A DNA stretch of 64,000 bases from Syntrophus aciditrophicus SB (GTDB lineage Bacteria > Desulfobacterota > Syntrophia > Syntrophales > Syntrophaceae): NCBI RefSeq assembly GCF_000013405.1, contig NC_007759.1, positions 2,357,001 to 2,421,000 of the forward strand, in the 5' to 3' direction. The notes beneath the pieces are model-generated. The model worked only from the letters and a program-made list of their open reading frames with translations, was not told the DNA's origin and did not search any database. Made by a program: the position numbers and the translations under genes. Below, piece after piece: positions 6,138 to 59,183 of the stretch (its first letter is position 1; each line of letters begins with the position of its first letter).

Positions 6138-6704
6138 ATGAAAAAAAACAGCAAAGGGATCATCTGCTGTCTGGTTTCTGTCTTGTTCGTCATTGTTGCA
6201 GGGACTGTCTTTGCTGCGAGCAGCACATACAAAATCAGTCCTGGAGACTCTCTTGAAATTTCCGTATGGAAAGATCAAAGTCTCACCCGAACACTGGTCG
6301 TCCCCCCGGATGGCTTCATTTCCTTCCCCCTGATCAAGGATCTGGACGTCTCCAATCTTACCGTTCCTGAACTTCGAGACATAGTTACCAAAAAACTGGC
6401 TGCCTATGTACCCGACGCCAACGTCACGGTCATTCTTCTCCAAACCCCAAGCATGACAGCCTATGTCATGGGCAAGGTCAACAAGCCCGGTCAGTTTCCT
6501 ATCACGACAGAAACCACCGTCCTGCAGATTCTCGCGATGGCGGGAGATCTGAATCCTTATGCCGCGGGCAGCAAAATTTTCGTTCTTCGTCATGAAAAGG
6601 GGAAAAGCACAAAAATCCCCTTCGATTATAATGAAGTAAAGCGGTTTGAAAGACTTGAGCAAAATATTTACCTGAAACGCGGCGACGTCGTTGTGGTTCC
6701 GTAA
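6138..6704 (+). CDS. Wza-type polysaccharide export lipoprotein-like protein of a PEP-CTERM/EPS locus
   Basis: Periplasmic or outer-membrane polysaccharide export protein, 188 residues. A signal peptide (about 1-27, ending VFA-AS) precedes the Poly_export motif SPGDSLEISVW, then a SLBB-type repeat with VMGKVNKPGQFPI. It is short compared with full Wza and lacks an obvious lipobox cysteine after the signal, as in the EpsE-like proteins of exosortase-linked loci. The start has a strong AAGGAGG 5 bases before ATG. First gene of a five-gene set with OMP, chain-length, kinase and ATPase genes, behind the structured leader. Confidence 0.85.
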   Translation: MKKNSKGIICCLVSVLFVIVAGTVFAASSTYKISPGDSLEISVWKDQSLTRTLVVPPDGFISFPLIKDLDVSNLTVPELRDIVTKKLAAYVPDANVTVILLQTPSMTAYVMGKVNKPGQFPITTETTVLQILAMAGDLNPYAAGSKIFVLRHEKGKSTKIPFDYNEVKRFERLEQNIYLKRGDVVVVP

Positions 6705-6810
6705 CAACCTGACATTCAAATATGTTTTCTGTACACTTTTTTTCCCCTGAGTTTCCGGACGAATTCGTTTCCATGCTCATGGTGAAAATTTTTATGAAAG
6801 GAATGATACA

Positions 6811-8004
6811 ATGAATACAAAACACCTCCCTTCCAGCGGCCTCCGAAGCACGAGCAAGTTGTCCATTTTCATTTTGTCTCTCGTCCTGTCCGGTTTGCTT
6901 TTAACCGGGCAAGCCCGAGCCGCGGAAAGGACGATTACTCCCTCGGTCGGGGTCAAGGCGGAGTACAATGACAACATTGATTTTTCTCATGGAAATGAAC
7001 GGGATGATTATATCGGCACCATCAGCCCGGGCCTTAAGCTGGATTATAAAACCGAACGAACGGTCCTTGGCGCCATGGCAAGAATCGATGTCGTCGAATA
7101 TCTGGATGAAACCGATGAAAATACCGTGAATCAGACATATGGCTTGAATGCCTCTCACATGCTGCTGGAAAAGCTCGGCATAAGGGCTAACGCCGGCTAT
7201 ATCCGCGATACAACCACGGACTCGTATCTGGAGGAAACCGGCTTGATTACAAGGAAATCCACGCGCCATAGTTATCGGGCTGGAGCGGGGCTTACCTATA
7301 ACCTGACCGAAATTTCGGATTTGGGTCTCGATTACGCCTATTCAAAAAGTGACTATGATGAGGAGGACAAAGTAGACTCTACAAAAGATACCGTAAGTAT
7401 GGCCTATCGTCACTTCTTTCGTGAACGCCGCGATATCGTAACGGTTACGCCTTTCTACTCCCGTTACGACTCCGATACCAGCACCACGGACAACTACGGT
7501 CTCTCCGTGGGATTGACCCACCGCCTCCAGGAGACCCTGGTGATGGATGTCGCACTGGGTGTCCGATACTCCGACGCGGAATACCATGATCTGGGCACAA
7601 CAGATGACAACTGGGACTGGACGGCCAATATTGCGGCAACGAAGTCCTGGGAAACGGCGTCCGCCACCATCGGTTACGGGCGGGATCTGTATTACAGCGA
7701 TCAGGGCGAGCCGATCAACGTGGACCGTTTTTATGCAAGAGCCAACAGAAATCTTACAGAGCGATTCGGCGTGAGCCTGACCGGCAGTCTTTACTTCTCC
7801 AAATCCGACGATGAGGTAGGCAATGAAGATACACGTTACTGGGAAGTCACTCCCAGCCTTTACTACAATATAACACGGGATCACCGGCTGGAAGTGGGAT
7901 ACAGTTATGCCAACGATTACGACAAGACCTTGACGGAGGACGACGAAGCGGAACGGAACAGAATCTGGGTTCTTCTGACATTCAACTTCCCCAAGACCTG
8001 GTAA
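6811..8004 (+). CDS. PEP-CTERM-system-associated outer-membrane beta-barrel protein
   Basis: 397 residues with a signal peptide ending ARA-AE near residue 38. The rest is rich in alternating hydrophobic/polar strands with aromatic girdles and acidic loops (for example GVKAEYNDNIDFS, YSYANDYDKTL). The C-terminus WVLLTFNFPKTW ends in an aromatic residue as outer-membrane barrels do. This resembles the putative exopolysaccharide outer-membrane protein family of exosortase/PEP-CTERM loci. The neighbours on both sides support a role in polysaccharide passage or surface display. The exact substrate is unknown. Confidence 0.75.
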   Translation: MNTKHLPSSGLRSTSKLSIFILSLVLSGLLLTGQARAAERTITPSVGVKAEYNDNIDFSHGNERDDYIGTISPGLKLDYKTERTVLGAMARIDVVEYLDETDENTVNQTYGLNASHMLLEKLGIRANAGYIRDTTTDSYLEETGLITRKSTRHSYRAGAGLTYNLTEISDLGLDYAYSKSDYDEEDKVDSTKDTVSMAYRHFFRERRDIVTVTPFYSRYDSDTSTTDNYGLSVGLTHRLQETLVMDVALGVRYSDAEYHDLGTTDDNWDWTANIAATKSWETASATIGYGRDLYYSDQGEPINVDRFYARANRNLTERFGVSLTGSLYFSKSDDEVGNEDTRYWEVTPSLYYNITRDHRLEVGYSYANDYDKTLTEDDEAERNRIWVLLTFNFPKTW

Positions 8005-45833: not shown

Positions 45834-46178
45834 ATGCATGAACTGTCTCTCGTTTCATCGATTCTGGATATCATCGAGGATTATGCGGCACAAGACGGTT
45901 TTCGACGCGTCAACAACCTGCGTCTTTCCTGCGGCAGGCTGTCCGGTGTAGATCTTCAGTGCCTCCGGTTTGCCTTCGAGGTGCTGTCCAGGGAGACCCG
46001 CTCCGAAGGAGCAACCCTCGAAATCGATTTCCTGCCGATTGTGATTTCCTGCCTGAACTGCGGAGAAGACACCGAGGTGGAATACGTTGAGGCCTCCTGT
46101 CCGGAATGCGGCTCTGAAAATGTGCTGCTTGCAGGCGGGACAGAGGAACTTCGTCTTCTTGAACTCGACGTGGATTGA
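45834..46178 (+). CDS. hypA: Hydrogenase nickel-incorporation protein HypA
   Basis: 114 residues. It starts MHELSLVSSILDII with nickel-ligand His2, and has a zinc ribbon with CLNCGED and CPECGS (C-x2-C, 14 residues, C-x2-C). It delivers nickel with HypB into [NiFe] hydrogenase large subunits. First gene of the hyp cluster, separated from hypC by 183 bases. Confidence 0.95.
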   Translation: MHELSLVSSILDIIEDYAAQDGFRRVNNLRLSCGRLSGVDLQCLRFAFEVLSRETRSEGATLEIDFLPIVISCLNCGEDTEVEYVEASCPECGSENVLLAGGTEELRLLELDVD

Positions 46179-46361
46179 CCCGTCGTTCTGTGATAAAAAT
46201 AGTTTACAAAACTCAACGGGAAGTTCGGGAGACTTTTCGGAAACGGGTTGAGCTCTGCATGGATTTCGAAGTTCTTTTAATATATCAACTGATCCGTTTC
46301 CATTTATTGAGAGTTATTTGTTTTTTGCAGGTTAATATAAAGATGTCTTGGAGATTTATTT

Positions 46362-46592
46362 ATGTGCATCGCCTTTCCCGGTAAAATTCTGACCATCGAT
46401 CAGGATAATTTCGCCGTGATCAACATCAACGGAACGCGGCGCGAGGTCTGCCTTGACATCATCGATGAAAAGGTCACCGTGGGCGACTATGTCATCTGTC
46501 ACGCCGGGTACGCCATCCACCGGATCGATGAAAAGCTGGCGCTGGAGAACCTTGCTTTGCTGAAAGAGATTATCGATCGTGAAATTTATTGA
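46362..46592 (+). CDS. hypC: Hydrogenase assembly chaperone HypC
   Basis: 76 residues. N-terminal MCIAFPGKIL with essential Cys2 and HAGYAIHRIDE near the end are the HypC/HupF signature. It carries the Fe(CN)2CO group with HypD. It overlaps hypD by 14 bases. Confidence 0.97.
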   Translation: MCIAFPGKILTIDQDNFAVININGTRREVCLDIIDEKVTVGDYVICHAGYAIHRIDEKLALENLALLKEIIDREIY

Positions 46593-47685
46593 CGAATACC
46601 GGGATCCCGATCTCGTTCGGCACCTTCTCGATGCCGTGGCGGCGCTGGCAGCCCGGGTCGGCCGTCGGATCAGCCTGATGGAGATCTGCGGCACTCACAC
46701 GCACGCCATCGGGCGCTTTGGAATCCGCAGGCTCCTTCCCGAAAACATCCGCCTCATCTCCGGCCCCGGATGCCCCGTCTGCGTCACCTCCATCCATGAC
46801 GTTGACCGAGCCCTGTATCTGGCGGATCGGCCTCATGTCGTCTTCGCCACCTTCGGCGACATGCTCCGCGTTCCCGGAACGGGCGGCAGAAGTCTCCAGC
46901 GGCTTCGCGCGGCAGGGGCGGATGTGCGCATTGTCTCTTCGACCCTGGACAGCCTTCGCCTCGCTGAAGAGAACCCGGAAAAGGAGGTTGTTTTCATGGG
47001 AATCGGCTTCGAAACAACGGCGCCGACCGTGGCATCAGCTATCCGCAAAGCCGGGCTTAAAGGGCTGAACAACTATTCCGTCTTTTCCGTACACAAGACC
47101 GTCCCGCAGGCGATCTCCGCCCTCATCGAGGATCCCGAACTCTCCATTGACGGCTTTATCTGTCCCGGCCATGTCAGCGTCATCACCGGCGTCGATGCTT
47201 ATAAGCGCATCCCGGAAACAGGACGGGCTGCCGTGATCACCGGTTTTGAACCGGTGGACATTCTCGAAGGCATCCTCATGATCCTGCGCCAGCTTCAGGA
47301 AGGGCGGTTCGAGGTCGCCATCCAGTATGCCCGGGGGGTAAACAGGGAGGGAAATCCCCAGGCCCTGAACATGATGGGCGAGGTCTTCGAAACAAGGGAG
47401 GCAGAGTGGAGGGGACTGGGAAGAATCCCCCAGAGCGGTCTTTTCATCCGGGAGAGGTATGCTGACTTCGACGCACTAAGAAAAGGAAACCTGCCTGAGA
47501 TCCGTTCCATCGAATTTGAAGCGTGCCGATGCGGTGAAATCCTGCGGGGCGTGATCTCCCCAGAGGAATGCCGCCTTTTCGGAAAAGTCTGCACTCCGGC
47601 AAACCCGGTGGGGCCCTGCATGGTGTCCAGCGAGGGGACCTGCGCGGCATACCTGAAATATGAAATCCATAACCGAAAATCGTAA
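46579..47685 (+). CDS. hypD: Hydrogenase iron-site assembly protein HypD
   Basis: 368 residues. It has the conserved EICGTHTHAIGRFGIR, SGPGCPVCVTS, VFMGIGFETTAPT, the cysteine set CRCGEILRG...CGKVCTP-like (FGKVCTPANP, GPCMVSSEGTCAAY) that binds a [4Fe-4S] cluster. With HypC it builds the Fe(CN)2CO group. Confidence 0.97.
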   Translation: MKFIDEYRDPDLVRHLLDAVAALAARVGRRISLMEICGTHTHAIGRFGIRRLLPENIRLISGPGCPVCVTSIHDVDRALYLADRPHVVFATFGDMLRVPGTGGRSLQRLRAAGADVRIVSSTLDSLRLAEENPEKEVVFMGIGFETTAPTVASAIRKAGLKGLNNYSVFSVHKTVPQAISALIEDPELSIDGFICPGHVSVITGVDAYKRIPETGRAAVITGFEPVDILEGILMILRQLQEGRFEVAIQYARGVNREGNPQALNMMGEVFETREAEWRGLGRIPQSGLFIRERYADFDALRKGNLPEIRSIEFEACRCGEILRGVISPEECRLFGKVCTPANPVGPCMVSSEGTCAAYLKYEIHNRKS

Positions 47686-47720
47686 CGGAAATTCCGTTAC
47701 GGAAATAAAGGAGATGCTCC

Positions 47721-48380
47721 ATGAAAGTAACCGTCGTCAAGAATGTCCTCGATGCCAATGAGCGGATCGCCAATGACAACCGCGGGCTCTTCGACAGGAA
47801 AAAAATCTACGTCATCAACCTCATGAGCTCGCCCGGTGCGGGAAAGACATCTCTCGTGGAAAAGACGATTCTGGCACTCAAGGACAGGTACCGGATCGCC
47901 GTCATCGAAGGGGACATTCAGGACACCTGCGACGCCGACCGGGTATCGGCTCTGGGGATTCCCGCCGTCCAGATCAATACGGGAGGAGCCTGTCACATTG
48001 ACGGCAACATGATCCGGGACGCCCTCCCCGCCCTCAACCTGGATGAGATCGACCTGCTCATCACCGAGAATGTGGGCAATCTTGTCTGTCCAGCAGAGTT
48101 CAAGATCGGGGAAAACGCCAAGGTGATGATTCTGAGCACCCCCGAAGGAGCGGACAAGCCTGCGAAATATCCCCTCATGTTTCAGGAATCCTCTGTGTTG
48201 ATCCTCAACAAAATGGATCTTCTCCCCTACGTGGATTTCGACCTGGAAAGGGCAAAGCGCACCGCCCTGTCCCTGAATCGGGATTTGAAGATTTTTGAAG
48301 TCTCCTGCAGGAATGACGAAGGCCTGGAAGGCTGGTATTCATGGCTTGCCGGACAGATCGAGGCCTTTCGCAATTCATGA
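47721..48380 (+). CDS. hypB: Hydrogenase nickel-insertion GTPase HypB
   Basis: 219 residues. Walker A SSPGAGKTS, EGDIQDTCDADR, GGACHIDGNM with the metal Cys-His pair, and LLITENVGNLVCPAEF; G4 LNKMD. It has no histidine-rich N-terminal stretch, so it is the non-storing type. Ribosome site AAAGGAGA precedes it. Confidence 0.96.
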   Translation: MKVTVVKNVLDANERIANDNRGLFDRKKIYVINLMSSPGAGKTSLVEKTILALKDRYRIAVIEGDIQDTCDADRVSALGIPAVQINTGGACHIDGNMIRDALPALNLDEIDLLITENVGNLVCPAEFKIGENAKVMILSTPEGADKPAKYPLMFQESSVLILNKMDLLPYVDFDLERAKRTALSLNRDLKIFEVSCRNDEGLEGWYSWLAGQIEAFRNS

Positions 48381-50677
48381 GCAGAAAGATAAGGCGCGTC
48401 CGCTGCCTTTTCACCGGCATCGTCCAGGGAGTGGGATTCCGCCCTTATATTTATAGAATGGCGACCAACTACAGTCTCGGCGGCTTTGTGTGCAACATCC
48501 CGGAAGGGGTGGTTGCCGAGGTCGAGGGAACTGCTCCGCAGATTGAAGCGTTCCTCTCCGCAGTCCCGAAAGAGCTCCCTCCCGCGGCCGCCTTGACTGC
48601 GCTGTCAAACACGGATGTCTCCCTTCTGGGAGAAACCGAATTCCAGATCATCAGCAGCAGGGCGGAGGGCAATAAAGCCGTCCTCATTGCCCCCGATATT
48701 GCCGTCTGCGAAAACTGCCTGCGGGAATTCCGGGACCCCGGGGATCGCCGGTATCGCTATCCCTTCATCAACTGCACGGACTGCGGCCCCCGCCTGACCA
48801 TCATCCGGGATGTCCCCTACGACCGGGAAAAGACCTCCATGGCCTGTTTCCCCCTTTGTCCACAGTGCCGCGCAGAGTATGAAAATCCCGCAAACCGCCG
48901 GTTCCATGCCGAACCCAATGCCTGCCCTTCCTGCGGACCGAAACTCTGGCTCACCGATGAAAACGGGACCCCTTTTTCGGACGATTTCAACGATCCCATC
49001 GCGAAGGCGATTGAACTGTTGAGCAAGGGGAAAATCCTGGCCGTAAAGGGACTCGGTGGTTTTCATCTTGCAGTGGATGCGACAGACGAGGGGGCCGTCA
49101 GGCGCCTGCGCAGCAGGAAATACCGTGAGGAAAAGCCGCTGGCCGTGATGGTGCGTGACCTTGAAGCGGCTTCGAAAATCGCTGAAATCGGCGACAGGGA
49201 GCGGAAGCTCCTTTTTTCTCCGCAGCGCCCCATTGTCCTCTGCCGCAAGCGAGGGGCAAAGGAAATCGCACCCTCCGTAGCGCCGGGGGTTCCTGACCGG
49301 GGCATCATGCTGCCTTACACGCCCCTGCATTATCTGCTTCTGGAAAATACGCTCTCCGCCCTCGTGATGACCAGCGCCAATCAGAGCGACGAGCCCATCT
49401 GCATCGGGAACCGCGAAGCCCTGAAACGCCTGAAAGGGATTGCCGACGCCTATCTCTTGCACAACAGGGACATCCTGGTACGCTGCGATGACTCCGTGGC
49501 GACCGTCACTCAAGGGAAGACCTTCATGATCCGCCGCTCCCGCGGCTATGCCCCGAAGCCGATTCCTCTTCTGCGCTCCTGTCCCAACGTGCTGGCCCTC
49601 GGCCCCCAGCTCAAGACAACGCTCTGCATTCTCAAGGGAAATCTTGCCTATCTCAGTCCCCATATCGGCGACATGGACACCCCGGAGGCTCGAAAATTCC
49701 ACCAGGAAAGCCTCCAGCTCATGGAACGGATCGCCCAGTGTCGACCCGATGTGCTCGCCTGCGATCTTCACCCCGCCTATTACACGACCCGCCTGGCGGA
49801 AGAGCTGCCCCACCGGACTGTTCTCCGAATCCAGCATCACCACGCCCATATCGTCAGCGCCATGGCCGAAAACGGCCTCACCGGCAAGGTGATCGGCCTG
49901 GCGATGGACGGAACGGGTTACGGAACAGACGGAACGGCCTGGGGCTGCGAGTTCCTCCTGGCGGATGAGGTGGACTTTCAGCGGGCGGGACACCTGAGGC
50001 CCTATCCGCTTCCCGGTTCGGACAGGGCGGTCCGGGAGCCATGGCGCGCGGCGGTCAGCCTCCTGCGGGAAAGCTATGGAGAGTTCTGGCGGGAAATCGC
50101 TGGAAATCTCCCCCTGAAGGACCATGCACCGCACTTCGAACTTCTGGATAAGATGATGGCCCACGGTTTGAACAGTCCCCCAACATCCAGCCTCGGTCGG
50201 GTGTTCGACGCCGTGGCCGCTCTTCTGGGAATCCGCCAGGTCGTGAACTTCGAAGGACAGGCGGCCATGGCATTGGAGGCCATGGCGTCTGCACCTGCAG
50301 AAAAAACCTATACCTTCGATATTTTTGAAGGGGACCGGATCGTCCTCGATCTCCGACCTCTGATCCGCGCCATTGTCCAGGAACAACTGTCAGGGAGAGA
50401 GCCGCAGAAGATCGCTTCCGATTTCCATCGGACCCTCAGTCGGGCTTTGGCGGCCGTGACGGCAAAGATCCGCATGCGGACCGGAATTGAAAAGGCAGTC
50501 CTGAGCGGCGGTTGTTTTCAGAACCGGATACTTCTCGACAGTGTGGCTCGGGAATTGGAGCAGGAAGGGTTTGCGGTTTACCTCCACAGAGACCTGCCGC
50601 CGAACGATGGCTGCATTGCCCTGGGCCAGGCCGTTGCGGCCGCCGCACGCATGGAAAGGCAAGAGGCAGGACGGTAA
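48377..50677 (+). CDS. hypF: Carbamoyltransferase HypF
   Basis: 766 residues from ATG 48377, overlapping the hypB stop by 4 bases. Acylphosphatase-like start (LFTGIVQGVGFRPYIYRMA), two zinc fingers (CENCLREFRD, CTDCGPR, CPQCRAEY, CPSCGPK), a YrdC-like domain, and a C-terminal Kae1-like domain with HHHAHIVSAMAENGL and GLAMDGTGYG. It makes the thiocyanate precursor for the CN ligands from carbamoyl phosphate. Confidence 0.97.
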   Translation: MSRKIRRVRCLFTGIVQGVGFRPYIYRMATNYSLGGFVCNIPEGVVAEVEGTAPQIEAFLSAVPKELPPAAALTALSNTDVSLLGETEFQIISSRAEGNKAVLIAPDIAVCENCLREFRDPGDRRYRYPFINCTDCGPRLTIIRDVPYDREKTSMACFPLCPQCRAEYENPANRRFHAEPNACPSCGPKLWLTDENGTPFSDDFNDPIAKAIELLSKGKILAVKGLGGFHLAVDATDEGAVRRLRSRKYREEKPLAVMVRDLEAASKIAEIGDRERKLLFSPQRPIVLCRKRGAKEIAPSVAPGVPDRGIMLPYTPLHYLLLENTLSALVMTSANQSDEPICIGNREALKRLKGIADAYLLHNRDILVRCDDSVATVTQGKTFMIRRSRGYAPKPIPLLRSCPNVLALGPQLKTTLCILKGNLAYLSPHIGDMDTPEARKFHQESLQLMERIAQCRPDVLACDLHPAYYTTRLAEELPHRTVLRIQHHHAHIVSAMAENGLTGKVIGLAMDGTGYGTDGTAWGCEFLLADEVDFQRAGHLRPYPLPGSDRAVREPWRAAVSLLRESYGEFWREIAGNLPLKDHAPHFELLDKMMAHGLNSPPTSSLGRVFDAVAALLGIRQVVNFEGQAAMALEAMASAPAEKTYTFDIFEGDRIVLDLRPLIRAIVQEQLSGREPQKIASDFHRTLSRALAAVTAKIRMRTGIEKAVLSGGCFQNRILLDSVARELEQEGFAVYLHRDLPPNDGCIALGQAVAAAARMERQEAGR

Positions 50678-50734
50678 AAACAGGAAACGGCCATTGAATA
50701 CAAAAACGCAATAAAGGAAAAAGGTTATAGCCCG

Positions 50735-51745
50735 ATGGATCATGATCGAATTCTTCTGGAACATGGTGGGGGAGGATTGCTCAGCCACGAACTCGTGACT
50801 GGGATTTTTCTTCCCCTTTTCAGGAATGCCTGTCTCGAACGACTGGAAGACAGCGCCGTTATCACCCTGGGCGACAGGAAGCTCTGCTTCACGACGGATT
50901 CCTACGTCATCGATCCGCTCTTCTTCCCCGGCGGCGATATCGGCTCCCTGGCGGTCCATGGAACCATTAACGATCTGTCCGTCTGCGGCGGAAAACCGTT
51001 GATGATGAGCGCCGGCTTCATTCTCGAAGAAGGGTTTCCCATGGAGGATCTCCGCCGTATTTCCCGCTCCATGGCGGAAGCGGCTCAAAAGGCCGGTGTT
51101 TCCATCGTGACTGGCGATACAAAGGTTGTGGCCCGCGGGGCCGCCGACGGTCTCTTCATCAACACCTCCGGCGTCGGCATCATCGAGTACCCTTCGCCCC
51201 TTTCTGTGGCAAGCATCGAACCCGGCGATGCGGTTATCGTGAGCGGGACGATCGGCGACCACGGAGCCACGGTCCTCAGCAAACGCCGGGAACTGGGCTT
51301 GATATCAGAAATCCGCTCCGATTCGGCGCCGCTTAACGGCCTCATCGGGTCGATCCTGGAAGCCTCTCCGAATGTCCACTGCATGCGGGATCCCACCCGT
51401 GGGGGACTCGGGGCGATCCTTGCCGAAATTGCCGCACAATCCGGTTTCCGCATCACGATTGAGGAAACGAAACTGCCTGTCCGGGAAGAAGTCAGGGGGA
51501 TCTGCGAAATATTGGGCTTCGACCCTCTTTTTCTAGCCAATGAAGGCAAGGTGGCCGTTTTCTGTTCCCCTGCCGATGCCTGCCTGATCCTTGACAAAAT
51601 GAAAAACCATGAGTACGGCCGCGACGCCGCCCTCATCGGCTTTGTCGGGAAGAGGAACGGCGAAGGGCTCATTCTGAACACATCCGTCGGTGGCTCCCGC
51701 GTTGTGGACCTGCCATTGGGAGAGCTGGTCCCGAGGATCTGCTGA
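50735..51745 (+). CDS. hypE: Hydrogenase maturation protein HypE
   Basis: 336 residues. PurM-like AIR synthase fold with HGGGGLLSHELV at the N-terminus, GDIGSLAVHGTINDLSVCGG, and MRDPTRGGLG. The C-terminus PRIC ends in the cysteine that is carbamoylated by HypF and dehydrated to thiocyanate. The last gene of the hyp set. Confidence 0.97.
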   Translation: MDHDRILLEHGGGGLLSHELVTGIFLPLFRNACLERLEDSAVITLGDRKLCFTTDSYVIDPLFFPGGDIGSLAVHGTINDLSVCGGKPLMMSAGFILEEGFPMEDLRRISRSMAEAAQKAGVSIVTGDTKVVARGAADGLFINTSGVGIIEYPSPLSVASIEPGDAVIVSGTIGDHGATVLSKRRELGLISEIRSDSAPLNGLIGSILEASPNVHCMRDPTRGGLGAILAEIAAQSGFRITIEETKLPVREEVRGICEILGFDPLFLANEGKVAVFCSPADACLILDKMKNHEYGRDAALIGFVGKRNGEGLILNTSVGGSRVVDLPLGELVPRIC

Positions 51746-52202: not shown

Positions 52203-55200
52203 ATGGTGGATGTCAACAGGAGAGGTTTTTTGAAGATATCCGGAGCGGTGTTGGCGGCCAGCGGGCTCGGAATCAGTCTGAAGCCCGTTTCCGCCTATGC
52301 CCAGCCCCTGAAGATTCAGTATGCCAAAGAGACGACTACGATTTGTCCATACTGTTCTGTGGGATGCAGCATCATCGTGTCGACCCGCAAAGGGAAGGTG
52401 GTCAATACGGAGGGTGATCCGGACAGTCCGATCAATCGCGGCTCCCTTTGCACCAAAGGGGGGTCCATCTATCAGATGGCAAACAACGAAAACCGGCTGG
52501 GCAAACCCCTTTACCGAGCCCCTTACGCCACGGAATGGAAGGAAGTGGACTGGGAGTGGGCCCTTGAGCGGATTGCGAAAAATGTCAAAACAAGCCGCGA
52601 CAAGAGCTTCCGGGCCGCCAATGACAAGGGTGAGTTGGTGAATCGGACGGAAGGAATCGCTTCTGTCGGCAGCGCTGCCATCGACAACGAAGAGTGCTTC
52701 GTTTATCAGAAATTTCTGCGGGGGTTGGGTCTGGTCTATATTGAGCACCAGGCCCGTATCTGACACAGCCCGACTGTACCGGCTCTGGGAGAGTCGTTCG
52801 GACGCGGCGCAATGACGAATCACTGGATCGATATCCGTAACAGTGATGTGATATTAATAATGGGCAGCAACCCTGCCTCCAACCACCCCATTGCCTTCAA
52901 ATGGATCACCGCCGCCATGGAAAAAGGGGCCAAGGTGATTTGCGTGGACCCGCGGTTCACGCAGTCGGCGGCAAAGGCGCACATTTACGCACCTCTCCGT
53001 TCGGGGACGGATATCGCCTTCCTCGGCGGGATGATCAGGTACATTATCGAAAACAAACTCTACTTCGAGGAGTACGTCAGGAATTACACTAATGCGACCT
53101 TCCTCGTGAATCCCGAATTTAAGCTGCCCGGCGACAACAACGGTGTCTTCTCGGGACTTACGGATGGGAAATACGATAAGGCCACCTGGTCATACCAGAC
53201 CGAAGGGGATGGAAGGATCAAAAAGGATCCCACCATGCAGGATCCCAACTGCGTCTTCCAGCTCATGAAAAAGCATTATTCCCGCTATACGCCGGAGGTC
53301 GTCAACAAAATCACGGGGACACCTGTAGACAAATTGATTGAAATCTACAAGATCTACGGTTCGACGGGAACTCCGGACCGGGCAGGAAACGAGCTATATG
53401 CCATGGGCTGGACCCAGCATACCGTCGGCACCCAGAATATCCGTACCATGTGCATCATTCAGCTTCTCCTGGGCAACATGGGCATCCCAGGCGGCGGCGT
53501 GGCAGCCATGCGTGGCGAGTCCAACGTCCAGGGATCAACGGATCATGGTCTTCTGTTCCACATCTGGCCCGGCTATCTCAACACCCCCAAGGCGTCTCTT
53601 GCGACTCTGGCCGCGTACAATGAAAAAGAGACCCCGACAACAAAGGAACCCAACAGTCTCAACTGGCAGAAAAACAAGCCCAAGTATGTAGCGAGTTTTC
53701 TCCGGGCCATGTACGGGACGAACGCCTCTCTGGACGAGGCATACAATCTGCTTCCCAAAATCGACGACGGCGCCAACTATTCCTGGCTCAACCTCTTCGA
53801 TGTGATGTATAAGGGCAAGTTCACGGGATTCTTTGCGTGGGGAATGAACCCCGCATGCAGCGGAGCCCATTCCAACAAGGTCCGCCAGGCATTGACCAGG
53901 CTGGACTGGATGGTCAATGTCAATCTCTATGACAACGAGACCGGCTCCTTCTGGCGCGGTCCTGGAATGGATCCGAAAAAGATCAGGACGGAAGTCTTCA
54001 TGCTGCCCTGCGCCGCCTCAATTGAAAAAGAGGGGAGCATCATCAACAGCGGCCGCTGGAACCAGTGGCGTTACAAAGCCATTGATCCTCCGGGCGTCGC
54101 TCTTCCTGACGGCGACATATGCTCGGAAATCTATTTCAAGGTCAAAGAACTGTACGAAAAGGAAGGCGGCCCCAACATGGAGGCCATCACGAAACTGAGT
54201 TGGAACTACGGTACGAAGACCTTCGACGGCCATTATCACTTCGATCCCCATTCCGTGGCCAAGGAAATCAACGGGTTCTTCCTTGAAGATAAAACGGTGG
54301 AAAATCCCACAAAGAAGGGTGAGTTCAAGGAGTTCAAGAAGGGCGATCCCGTTCCCACCTTTGCCTGGCTCCAGGATGACGGTTCCACGTCCTCCGGCTG
54401 CTGGGTCTACTGCGGCTCCTACACGGACAAGAACATGTCCGCCCGCCGCGACGGAAAGAAAGACCCGACGGGCATCGGCCTTTACCCCGAGTGGGCATGG
54501 GCATGGCCGGTCAACAGAAGGATCATCTATAACGGCGCCTCTGTCGATCCGTCAGGAAAGCCATGGAGTGCTAAGAAGGCGGTCATCAAGTGGGTCGGCG
54601 ACAAATGGGTCGGAGATGTTCCGGATGGTGTGGGCGATCCCGGATCCGGCAGGCCTCCCTTCATCATGAAGCCCGACGGCGTGGCGAGCCTCTTTGGACC
54701 GGGTCTGGCTGACGGGCCTTTCCCCGAGCATTACGAACCCCTGGAATGTCCAGTGGAGAAGAATTTCCTGTCACCCCAGAAAAGCAACCCGACAATCAAG
54801 CGGTTCGACAAACCCGGTGTGGGTTCCGATGTGGACGTGTACTCGGGCATCGATTCATGCGATCCCAAATACCCGTTCATCTGCGCGACATACCGCATCA
54901 GCGAGCATTGGCAGACCGGCCTCCAGACCCGTTGGTGCCCCTGGCTTTCCGAGATGCAGCCGGAAATGTGGTGCGAGATGAGCAAGGAGCTGGCGAAGGA
55001 GCGGGGAATCTCCAACGGTGACAAGGTCATTGTCAGTTCTCCCAGAGGCGAAGTGGAGTGTGTAGCCATTGTCACACCCCGTTTCAAGCCGTTTAACATC
55101 AACGGAAACATCCTCCATGAGGTCGGCATCCCCTGGCATTTCGGGTGGATCACGACGAAGGATCGGCAGTACAACCCCGGTGACAAGAAGGCAGAGGTCT

Positions 55201-55304
55201 TCACATGGGGTGACGCGGCCAATCTCCTGGTGCCGACGATCGGGGACGCCAACACGACGATCCCGGAAAGCAAGGCCTTCATGGTTAATGTGGTCAAGAA
55301 GTAA
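52203..55304 (+). CDS. fdhA: Formate dehydrogenase alpha subunit, selenocysteine-containing, Tat-exported
   Basis: Molybdopterin enzyme that oxidises formate (or reduces CO2), 1033 residues with an in-frame TGA at 52761-52763 read as selenocysteine (residue 187). The reading continues in frame after it as HSPTVPALGESFGRGAMTNHW, the family motif. A Tat motif RRGFLK (6-11) and a [4Fe-4S] set Cys48, Cys51, Cys55, Cys83 precede it; MPT-binding segments follow. The Tat signal places it in the periplasm. fdhB and fdhC follow within 15 bases. A gene caller that ends at TGA splits it at 52763 and 52812. FdhE and SelABC are not in the window. Confidence 0.95.
52761..52796 (+). promoter_or_regulatory. 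UGA selenocysteine codon with candidate SECIS hairpin
   Basis: TGA (52761-52763) is followed seven bases later by a stem CGACT (52771-52775) and AGTCG (52792-52796), with an inner CC/GG pair and a loop containing GGCTCT. Bacterial SECIS elements stand right after the UGA with a hairpin of this size. The loop does not show an obvious E. coli-type GGUC, but bacterial loops vary. Confidence 0.7.
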
Positions 55305-55318
55305 GGGGGTAAACAAAA

Positions 55319-56110
55319 ATGGCAGAATATATAAAACTTATTGATGTTTCCAAATGTACCGGCTGCCGGGGTTGTCAGCTGGCCTGCAAACAGTGGAATC
55401 AGCAGAAGGCGAAACAGACCGTGAATTATGGAACCTACCAGAATCCTCCAGACCTTCAGGCCAACACATGGACTCTGATCCGGTTTCAGGAAGTCGAGGA
55501 AAAGGACACGGTCAAGTGGCTCTTTCGGAAAGACGGATGCATGCATTGCACGAACGCAGCCTGTGTCAAGGTTTGCCCCAGCGGCGCGCTTCACTATACA
55601 GAGGTGGGAACGGTTGGTTTGAACCATGAGCTTTGCATCGGCTGCAAGGAATGTGTCTCGGCCTGTCCCTTCAACATTCCCCGGTATGACCGGGAGACAG
55701 ACAAGGTTTACAAATGCGACCTCTGCCTGAGCCGCATCAGGGCCGATCTTATTCCCGCCTGCGCAAAGGCATGCCCAACGGGAGCCATTACCTTCGGTGA
55801 GAAGTCCGCTATGATCAAGAAGGCTCATGAGCGGGTCAAGGAATTGGGCGGGGATGCCAATGTCTATGGGGACAAGTTTGTCGGCGGCACCCATGTCATG
55901 TATGTTCTGGATGAAAAACCTTCTGTTTATGAGAAATTGCCGAAAAATCCTTCAGTGCCAATCACCGTCACGCTTTGGAAAGACATTATGAAGCCTCTCA
56001 GCCTTCTGGCGGCCGGCGGCGCCCTTGCCGGTTCATTCTTGCATTACATTATCCACGGGCCCAAACTTCCAGATGAAGAACAGGGTCAAGAACCGAAGGG
56101 AGGGGAATAA
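55319..56110 (+). CDS. fdhB: Formate dehydrogenase beta subunit, four [4Fe-4S] clusters
   Basis: 263 residues. Cysteine sets CTGCRGCQLAC, CMHCTNAACVKVC, CIGCKECVSAC and CDLCLSRIRADLIPACAKAC bind four clusters. A C-terminal membrane segment (about 222-245) is followed by a charged tail, as in FdnH. Without its own signal peptide it would be co-exported with FdhA by Tat. It passes electrons from FdhA to the cytochrome subunit. Confidence 0.95.
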   Translation: MAEYIKLIDVSKCTGCRGCQLACKQWNQQKAKQTVNYGTYQNPPDLQANTWTLIRFQEVEEKDTVKWLFRKDGCMHCTNAACVKVCPSGALHYTEVGTVGLNHELCIGCKECVSACPFNIPRYDRETDKVYKCDLCLSRIRADLIPACAKACPTGAITFGEKSAMIKKAHERVKELGGDANVYGDKFVGGTHVMYVLDEKPSVYEKLPKNPSVPITVTLWKDIMKPLSLLAAGGALAGSFLHYIIHGPKLPDEEQGQEPKGGE

Positions 56111-56112
56111 CC

Positions 56113-56781
56113 ATGAGAAAAGGATTGATTCAAGCGACGGACTCCTTTGAGAGGATCGTGCACTGGTGTCTGGCGATCTCCTGCCTGATCCTGTGCATTA
56201 CGGGCCTGGGAATGATGTTCCATTCCCTTAACTTTATCGGTACTCCCTTTGGCGGTTTGAAGTCTTTGAAGTACCTTCACAATTTCACGGCGCTCTTTTT
56301 CATCCTGTCCCTCTATTTCACCATCCGCATGTGGTGGAAGGAAGCGGGAATTTTCGTTTTTCCTGAAGATCTGGACTGGATCAAGAGTGCGGGCGGATAT
56401 CTGTGGCATGTGGACAAGGTTCCAGAGGTGGGCAAGTACAATCCGGGACAGAAGATGTTCTTCCTGGTTGTAGCAGGCGGCGGAGCGGCCATGGTCCTGT
56501 CAGGATTGATTATGCTGTTCCCGTTGAATATCCCGGCCGCCCTCGTGAGACTGATGTATCTGATCCACGCCGCTGGATTTGTGGCGATTTTCGCCTTCTT
56601 CTTCATCCACCTTTATCTGGGAACGATCGGTTCTCCCGGTTCATTGCCGGCTATGCTGAACGGCTGGGTAACACGAGCCTGGCTGAAGAAACAGCATCCC
56701 AAGTGGCTCAAGGAAATGGAAGAGGAAGGAAAACTGGTGGTGTTTGGAGAAGAAAAGACAAACGCTGGTCATGGCCATTAA
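56113..56781 (+). CDS. fdhC: Formate dehydrogenase gamma subunit, cytochrome b556 type
   Basis: 222 residues with four membrane segments. Candidate heme-ligand histidines are in FERIVHWCL, SLKYLHNFTAL and MYLIHAAGFVAIF, FFFIHLYLG. This is the FdnI-like anchor that hands electrons to menaquinone. It starts 2 bases after fdhB; the stop is followed by a terminator. Confidence 0.93.
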   Translation: MRKGLIQATDSFERIVHWCLAISCLILCITGLGMMFHSLNFIGTPFGGLKSLKYLHNFTALFFILSLYFTIRMWWKEAGIFVFPEDLDWIKSAGGYLWHVDKVPEVGKYNPGQKMFFLVVAGGGAAMVLSGLIMLFPLNIPAALVRLMYLIHAAGFVAIFAFFFIHLYLGTIGSPGSLPAMLNGWVTRAWLKKQHPKWLKEMEEEGKLVVFGEEKTNAGHGH

Positions 56782-56950: not shown

Positions 56951-58357
56951 CTATTTTTTGGAAAGATATTCGTGGATGGCCGCGGCAGCCTTTTTGCCTG
57001 CTCCCATGGCCAGAATGACTGTCGCTGAACCGGTCACGATGTCGCCACCGGCATAAACTGCTTCGCGGCTGGTCAAGCCGGATTCATCCTTGGCTACGAT
57101 ATAGCCCCACTTATTGGTTTCCAGGCCCGGAGTCGTCATGGGGATAATGGGATTGGCGTTGGTTCCGACGGACACCACAACCGTATCCACTTCGATGACA
57201 AATTCCGACCCTTTCTTTTCGATCGGTCTGCGGCGGCCGGATTCATCCGGCTCACCCAGTTCCATCTGAACGCATTTAATCCCTTTGACCCACCCGTTTT
57301 CATCGCCGATGTACTCAACAGGATTGGTCAACAGTTTGAACTGAACGCCCTCTTCCTTGGCATGATGCACTTCCTCCGCTCTTGCCGGAAGTTCGACTTC
57401 GCTGCGGCGGTAAATGATATACGCATTTTCAGCACCAAGCCGCAGGGCGGTCCTCACGGAGTCCATCGCCACGTTGCCGCCGCCGATGACGGCGACATTC
57501 TTCCCGCGGACAATGGGCGTGTCGTATTCAGGGAACAGATAGGCTTTCATCAGGTTGGAACGGGTCAGGTACTCGTTTGCCGAGTAGATGCCGCTGAGGT
57601 TTTCACCCGGGATGCCCATGAAGACCGGGGAACCGGCGCCCACCCCAAGGAAGACCGCGTCATATCCTTCCGCAAAGAGTTCATCAATCGTATGAAGCCT
57701 GCCGATGACGGCATTGGTTATAATCTTGACGCCCAGTTTTTCGAGATAATTGACCTCGGCTTCCACAATGCTCTTGGGCAGACGGAATTCGGGAATACCA
57801 TAAACCAGCACTCCACCCGGCTTATGAAGGGCTTCATAGATCGTCACATCATAACCCAGTTTGATCAGGTCACCTGCAACGGTGAGACCGGCCGGACCCG
57901 CACCGACAACAGCCACTTTCTTGCCGTTCTTCGGGGCCAGCTCCGGGATCTTGACTTCTCCTTTATTTCGCTCATAATCCGCGGCAAAACGTTCCAGCCG
58001 GCCGATAGCCACCGGCTCGTCTTTTTTACCGACGATGCAGAATTTTTCACACTGATCTTCCTGCGGACAGACTCGCCCGCACACCGCCGGAAGCGCACTG
58101 TCTTCCTTCAGTTTCCAGGCAGCCTCGATAAACTTTCCCTCAGCAATGAGTTTGACAAAGGCTGGGATATCGACCCCTACAGGGCAACCGGTACGGCATG
58201 CCGGTTTCTTGCACTGGAGGCAGCGGCTCGCCTCTTTCATGGCTGTTTCTTCAGAATAGCCGAAAGGAACCTCGTTATAATTATGGATCCTCACTTTCGG
58301 ATCCTGCTCAGGCATCTTGTGTCGCGGTAATTTTTCTTTCTTCTCTTTATTTTCCAT
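56951..58357 (-). CDS. nfnB: NfnB-type NADPH-dependent subunit, glutamate synthase small-chain-like
   Basis: About 468 residues. N-terminal [4Fe-4S] cysteines (CLQCKKPACRTGCPVGVDIP and CGRVCPQEDQCEKFC), FAD motif VVGAGPAGLTVAGDL, NADPH motif VIGGGNVAMDSVRTALR and C-terminal AGGDIVTGSATVILAMGAG. It pairs with the NfnA-type gene upstream, which suggests an electron-bifurcating NADH/ferredoxin:NADP transhydrogenase rather than a GltD working alone. ATG 58357 overlaps nfnA by 11 bases; GTG 58366 is the alternative. Confidence 0.9.
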   Translation of the reverse strand: MENKEKKEKLPRHKMPEQDPKVRIHNYNEVPFGYSEETAMKEASRCLQCKKPACRTGCPVGVDIPAFVKLIAEGKFIEAAWKLKEDSALPAVCGRVCPQEDQCEKFCIVGKKDEPVAIGRLERFAADYERNKGEVKIPELAPKNGKKVAVVGAGPAGLTVAGDLIKLGYDVTIYEALHKPGGVLVYGIPEFRLPKSIVEAEVNYLEKLGVKIITNAVIGRLHTIDELFAEGYDAVFLGVGAGSPVFMGIPGENLSGIYSANEYLTRSNLMKAYLFPEYDTPIVRGKNVAVIGGGNVAMDSVRTALRLGAENAYIIYRRSEVELPARAEEVHHAKEEGVQFKLLTNPVEYIGDENGWVKGIKCVQMELGEPDESGRRRPIEKKGSEFVIEVDTVVVSVGTNANPIIPMTTPGLETNKWGYIVAKDESGLTSREAVYAGGDIVTGSATVILAMGAGKKAAAAIHEYLSKK

Positions 58358-59183
58358 GGCATTCACACCTGTATTTATCCATCGATTCTTTTTCCTGGGT
58401 CATATACATTCGCAGACGGCTTGCCAGCAGGTCGAAATCAACGGCATGACCATCAAATTCGGGACCATCGACACAGGCAAATTTTGTCTCTCCGCCAACT
58501 GCCACACGGCAGGCGCCACACATTCCCGTCGCATCCACCATAATGGAATTCAGGCTGACCGTTGTCTTGATGCCGTAATTCTTTGTTACTGCAGCCACGG
58601 CTTTCATCATCGGAACTGGGCCGATTGCAAAGACTTCATCGATCTTTTCCCCGGACTCAATCACATTCTTCAGGGCATCGCTGACGAAACCATGAACACC
58701 GTAACTCCCGTCATCGGTCGTTACGATCAGATTATCACTGATACTTCTCGTTTCATCTTCCAGGATCAGCAGATCCTTGCACCGCGCACCGATAATGGAG
58801 GTGACCTTGGCGCCCTGTTTTTTCAGGGCCGCGGCAATGGGATAGACAACACCTACCCCGACGCCTCCGCCGACGCAGACGGCATTTTTAACGCCTTCAA
58901 TGTGGGTCGGCCTGCCCAGGGGTCCCTGCAGATCCATCAGTTCATCACCCGCCTTCATTGCAGCCAGCTTGGCCGTTGTCTTGCCCACCACTTGAAAGAT
59001 AATCGTAAGTGTCCCCTTCTCAGGATCAGCATCCACGGTAGTCAACGGAATTCTTTCACCTTTTTCATCGATTTTGAGGACAACAAATTGACCGGCCCTT
59101 CTCTTCCGTGCTATCGCTGGAGCGTCAAGGACCATCTTGACCACGTTCTCCGACAAATCTACTTTTTCCAGAATCTTAGTCAA
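58347..59183 (-). CDS. nfnA: NfnA-type FAD/[2Fe-2S] subunit (ferredoxin-NADP reductase alpha-like)
   Basis: 278 residues. FAD domain, NAD motif (GGGVGVGVVYPIA, about 108-120), and a C-terminal [2Fe-2S] site with MCGACRVAVGGETKFACVDG. Same family as the PyrK/NfnA subunits of sulfide dehydrogenase and Nfn. Predicted first gene, directly upstream of nfnB on the minus strand. Alone it would be a PyrK-like subunit; the pair with nfnB decides the call. Confidence 0.9.
   Translation of the reverse strand: MTKILEKVDLSENVVKMVLDAPAIARKRRAGQFVVLKIDEKGERIPLTTVDADPEKGTLTIIFQVVGKTTAKLAAMKAGDELMDLQGPLGRPTHIEGVKNAVCVGGGVGVGVVYPIAAALKKQGAKVTSIIGARCKDLLILEDETRSISDNLIVTTDDGSYGVHGFVSDALKNVIESGEKIDEVFAIGPVPMMKAVAAVTKNYGIKTTVSLNSIMVDATGMCGACRVAVGGETKFACVDGPEFDGHAVDFDLLASRLRMYMTQEKESMDKYRCECHGK

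Follow-up and report, generated by a model that had tools for sequence, protein, structure and literature searches.

Genes and features at the locus

The window, that is, the whole 64,000-nucleotide stretch of Syntrophus aciditrophicus DNA analysed here, contains a set of fdnGHI-type genes for a formate dehydrogenase (FDH), with a hairpin inside the first gene (Table 1). The frame of this first gene, bounded by an ATG and a TAA, is open along its entire length except for a single in-frame TGA.

Table 1. Coordinates of the features at the fdnGHI-type locus, as positions in the window
Feature	Position	Strand	Basis
Alpha subunit of an fdnG/fdhA-type formate dehydrogenase, 1033 aa with one Sec (predicted)	52203..55304	+	TIGR01553; full-length homologues PDB 9qm0/6sdr/1kqf
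Putative Tat-type signal peptide (NRRGFLK), residues 1 to about 35	52203..52307	+	sequence; PF10518
In-frame TGA, read as selenocysteine (predicted)	52761..52763	+	codon 187; TGA in 29/30 loci; aligned with active-site residue of solved FDHs
SECIS-like element with a 7-bp hairpin as core (52780-52796, loop GGG)	52758..52816	+	Rfam RF01989 match; stem invariant in 29 sequences; synonymous-site freeze
fdnH-type beta subunit, 4Fe-4S ferredoxin domains and C-terminal transmembrane helix	55319..56110	+	TIGR01582; PF13247, PF09163
fdnI-type cytochrome b gamma subunit	56113..56781	+	TIGR01583; PDB 1kqf_C

The alpha subunit belongs to TIGR01553 (formate dehydrogenase-N alpha subunit), scoring 1352.4 bits (cut-off 814.2) in a match that covers residues 3-1032. 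Its start carries a twin-arginine motif, and PF10518 scores 20.9 bits there, slightly below the gathering value of 22.7. For the beta subunit, TIGR01582 gives 292.6 bits, under its cut-off of 334.7. PF13247 and PF09163 are both above theirs, and the latter, at 61.5 bits, identifies the C-terminal transmembrane helix typical of FdnGHI. The gamma subunit reaches 151.4 bits with TIGR01583 (cut-off 115.85), and four histidines match in its alignment with 1kqf_C, as in the cytochrome b of FdnGHI. We take these four histidines to be haem ligands. Judged by its genes, the locus is arranged as for an FdnGHI enzyme, predicted to face the periplasm.

The best solved relatives of the alpha subunit are Sec-containing formate dehydrogenases of Desulfovibrio (9qm0, 6sdr and others) at about 1290 bits; E. 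coli FdnG (1kqf) is less similar, with 923.5 bits. The closest solved alpha subunit is that of the D. vulgaris-type FdhAB (6sdr, the W/Sec formate dehydrogenase of Desulfovibrio vulgaris), where the stretch EHQARI-U-HSPTVPAL is identical except for the Sec symbol. D. vulgaris FdhAB is a two-subunit soluble enzyme, and the operon described here differs from it by the presence of a membrane cytochrome b subunit. With E. coli formate dehydrogenase-N FdnGHI it shares the three-subunit layout, a beta subunit with a C-terminal transmembrane helix and a cytochrome b gamma subunit; the alpha subunit of FdnGHI is of the Tat type, as is probable here. The active site of E. coli FdnG holds Sec, as predicted here.

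A second fdnGHI copy is present in the genome, as a membrane FDH at C1:153898-156963. Between the two copies (window 55319-56781 and L065 7917-9382) identity rises from 57.0% in alpha to 74.9% in beta and 90.5% in gamma. This uneven likeness suggests later exchange or a stronger constraint at the membrane end.

Immediately upstream of fdnG lies a hydrogenase maturation cluster, hypA-hypC-hypD-hypB-hypF-hypE (45834-51745), in which hypC (46362-46592) was assigned by eye and had no NCBIfam match at E 1e-20. On the minus strand, 56951-59183 holds a convergent pair of genes, one resembling the small subunit of glutamate synthase and the other an FAD/NAD subunit of the dihydroorotate dehydrogenase type, in an NfnAB-like arrangement.

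The in-frame TGA at codon 187

Translation with table 11 breaks the gene into an ORF of 186 aa (52203-52763) and one of 830 aa (52812-55304), whereas reading the TGA as Sec yields one protein. The initial annotation, made from the sequence, had described this split and had put the TGA at 52761; both statements are exact. It had also recognised a formate dehydrogenase motif in the same frame past the TGA, and the stretch around residue 187 (ARI-U-HSPTVPALGESFGRGAMTNHW) does align with the active site of solved FDHs. The residue aligned at 187 is X in 6sdr and C in 9qm0. The codon that follows the TGA is CAC (His), which gives the Sec/Cys-then-His order required at the metal-ligand position for TIGR01553 membership.

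Conservation of the codon was followed in two sets of relatives. In the first, 60 genomes including this one were searched, all 60 had some match, and the 30 closest loci, this gene among them, were examined: codon 187 is TGA in 29 and TGC (Cys) in one (L023, in the Syntrophus assembly G002). The second set comprises 80 loci fetched from genome_contigs with the beta subunit, 66 of which have an alignment spanning codon 187, with TGA in 63 and TGC in three. Two of these three are distant relatives (29-31% identity), and the third, L105, was judged identical with the L023 record; some further loci are likewise common to both sets. Neither TAA nor TAG occurs at codon 187 among the 30 loci of the first set or the 66 spanning loci of the second, so the normal stop that the initial annotation had named as refuting its call is not found in these homologues.

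The hairpin downstream of the TGA

The hairpin CGGCUCU-GGG-AGAGUCG has its loop 23 nt past the TGA; many relatives carry GGC in place of the GGG loop. In bacteria the SECIS consensus is described as a hairpin immediately 3' of the UGA with a G in a small apical loop (as given in the consulted part of PMC1088965). Our hairpin has this form, lying just past the UGA with G in its small apical loop. Rfam SECIS_3 (RF01989) matches the wider element with 39.3 bits (E 3.4e-7 in 1 kb), and since the gathering score of 63 is not reached, we describe the element as resembling SECIS_3 without assigning it to the family. Across the whole genome SECIS_3 has five matches at E up to 1. Four of them sit one each in four TGA-bearing fdhA genes, and the fifth has an E of 0.89.

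All seven core pairs are unchanged in the 29 TGA sequences, and four of the seven are unpaired in the TGC copy. No RNA covariation is detectable among the 29 sequences, because the seven pairs do not vary. Folding energy is uninformative as a measure, with 550 of 2000 synonymous shuffles folding as low or lower, and does not make the hairpin exceptional. Synonymous sites give a clearer signal. Among positions that keep their residue, the identical codon is used in 0.91 of cases over codons 188-200 and in 0.51 over the rest of the gene (codons 181-215 excluded). When the gene is divided into 13-codon windows, the twelve with the highest conservation all start between codons 183 and 196. This freeze, together with the retention of the TGA in the first set, indicates that the hairpin is more than chance and is under selection. 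A hairpin at the right distance had been pointed out in the initial annotation; the invariant 7-bp stem and the codon freeze support taking it as a SECIS, while the sub-gathering SECIS_3 score and the unexceptional folding energy count against this.

Over codons 188-203, 10 of the 14 comparable codons are changed in the TGC copy (L023), and none of 14 in each of two Sec congeners. As the freeze is lost in the former and intact in the latter, this comparison of coding sequences shows that the extra synonymous-site constraint accompanies the predicted Sec insertion, and not the protein.

Selenocysteine machinery

The genome, searched as one contig of 3,179,300 bases, encodes a tRNA-Sec (77.4 bits, cut-off 47) with anticodon UCA (ARAGORN: tca). 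It also has selA (615.3 bits), selB (373.6 bits) and selD (379.6 bits), each above its curated cut-off. The initial annotation had proposed to look for selA, selB, selC and selD and had held that their absence would speak against its call, and with the tRNA-Sec(UCA) the whole set expected of a bacterium that makes selenoproteins is present. The selD gene (L013, G000:C1:1086624-1087553) has one in-frame TGA of its own, and so do the best selD matches of three same-genus genomes searched.

Exactly four fdhA genes of this genome have TGA in frame at the position of Sec, this gene being one of them. A fifth TGA-bearing match (C1:3017669) was rejected, its TGA lying before the start codon and its aligned active-site residue being Cys. 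According to the part of the report of Zhang et al. (2006) that was consulted, S. aciditrophicus has 19 selenoproteins, including SelD and four FdhA (PMC1794560). This number of FdhA equals ours, and a one-to-one match between the two groups of four is probable.

Interpretation of the locus

We conclude, with a probability of about 0.97, that these genes form an fdnGHI operon whose product is a membrane FDH linked to quinone and facing the periplasm, and that UGA codon 187 of fdnG is decoded as Sec. By analogy with known families, the UGA would be decoded by tRNA-Sec(UCA) delivered by SelB, which would recognise the mRNA hairpin just past it. Sec187 would then ligate the Mo/W of a bis-pyranopterin cofactor, and the folded alpha subunit would be exported by Tat together with FdnH. 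FdnI would anchor the complex, with electrons passing between formate/CO2 and menaquinone; the metal and the direction of the reaction in vivo are likewise those suggested by related enzymes.

The two ORFs obtained under table 11 could also be taken to mean that a nonsense mutation has turned the gene into a pseudogene, or that the TGA is a sequencing error. The conservation of the TGA across many separate assemblies refutes this reading: the same codon is TGA in 28 of the 29 other loci of the first set and TGC in the remaining one, and it is never TAA or TAG in the 66 spanning loci of the second, partly overlapping set. The codon also falls on a known active-site position, and the protein is conserved about as well after it (amino-acid identity 0.78 among loci, residues 188-1033) as before it (0.84, residues 36-186). 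A broken gene or a misread base is thus extremely improbable. The initial annotation had warned that calling two genes here would wrongly imply a pseudogene, and the gene is indeed intact, with a full-length family match over its 1033 residues.

The same pair of ORFs might instead stand for two separate proteins, a 186-aa fragment and an 830-aa product starting from the ATG at 52812. Neither the Fe4S4 domain nor the putative Tat signal nor the catalytic residue would be part of the longer product, and TIGR01553 spans both ORFs as one chain, so that we give this division hardly any credence. It is equally implausible that a suppressor or an altered code lets the TGA be read as Trp or Cys. The Cys codon at this site in one relative is compatible with it and nothing speaks for it directly; against it, the hairpin and the synonymous constraint accompany the TGA codon, the full Sec machinery is present, and TGA terminates an ordinary gene in this genome. 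The preferred reading, decoding as Sec, agrees with the initial annotation and makes this an ordinary, intact and already catalogued Sec-type fdnG. Nothing in it is new in kind. It is a clean, checkable case of a gene that would look broken under standard-code annotation, and its enzyme is central to electron transfer in syntrophy.

In terms of physiology, a periplasmic membrane FDH of S. aciditrophicus is described, in the consulted part of PMC8805022, as acting in both directions: it takes part in formate cycling when the organism grows axenically and in a reverse redox loop when it grows in syntrophy. The initial annotation had linked the enzyme to interspecies formate transfer; going by that part of the source, this holds for part of the role, and formate cycling in axenic growth belongs to it too (PMC8805022). 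The available part of Agne et al. gives no locus tag by which the activity described could be assigned to this gene and not to the FDH at C1:153898-156963.

Sec and Cys versions within Syntrophus

Two other Syntrophus assemblies (G001 and G002) carry cysteine versions, and this traffic between Sec and Cys is the only less expected by-product of the analysis. In G002 the ortholog L023 (contig C182) has TGC at the Sec position, has lost the SECIS and contains a TAG at codon 393. Because of this TAG the copy is possibly decaying, or the assembly may be in error there. The TAG was rejected as a recoded Sec codon, since it stands at codon 393 and TGC occupies the position of Sec in this copy. Upstream of L023 there is an fdnI-like gene, in place of the hyp genes seen in this genome.

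A tRNA-Sec was not found in the 580-contig assembly of G002, possibly owing to an assembly gap. That G002 has lost the Sec trait is not supported, as selA, selB and a TGA-bearing selD are all present.

Finally, G001 has, on one contig (L071 and L083; C58:958-4023 and 6499-7221), a membrane FDH alpha subunit with TGC and an NADH-type FDH alpha subunit with TGT, and it holds Sec FDH versions of its own elsewhere. It is conceivable, though rather doubtful, that the enzyme shifts between Sec and Cys within Syntrophus, the extra Cys set of G001 being a spare that needs no selenium and is turned on or off by its supply. A Sec-to-Cys change in FdhA is already mentioned in the consulted part of PMC1794560.
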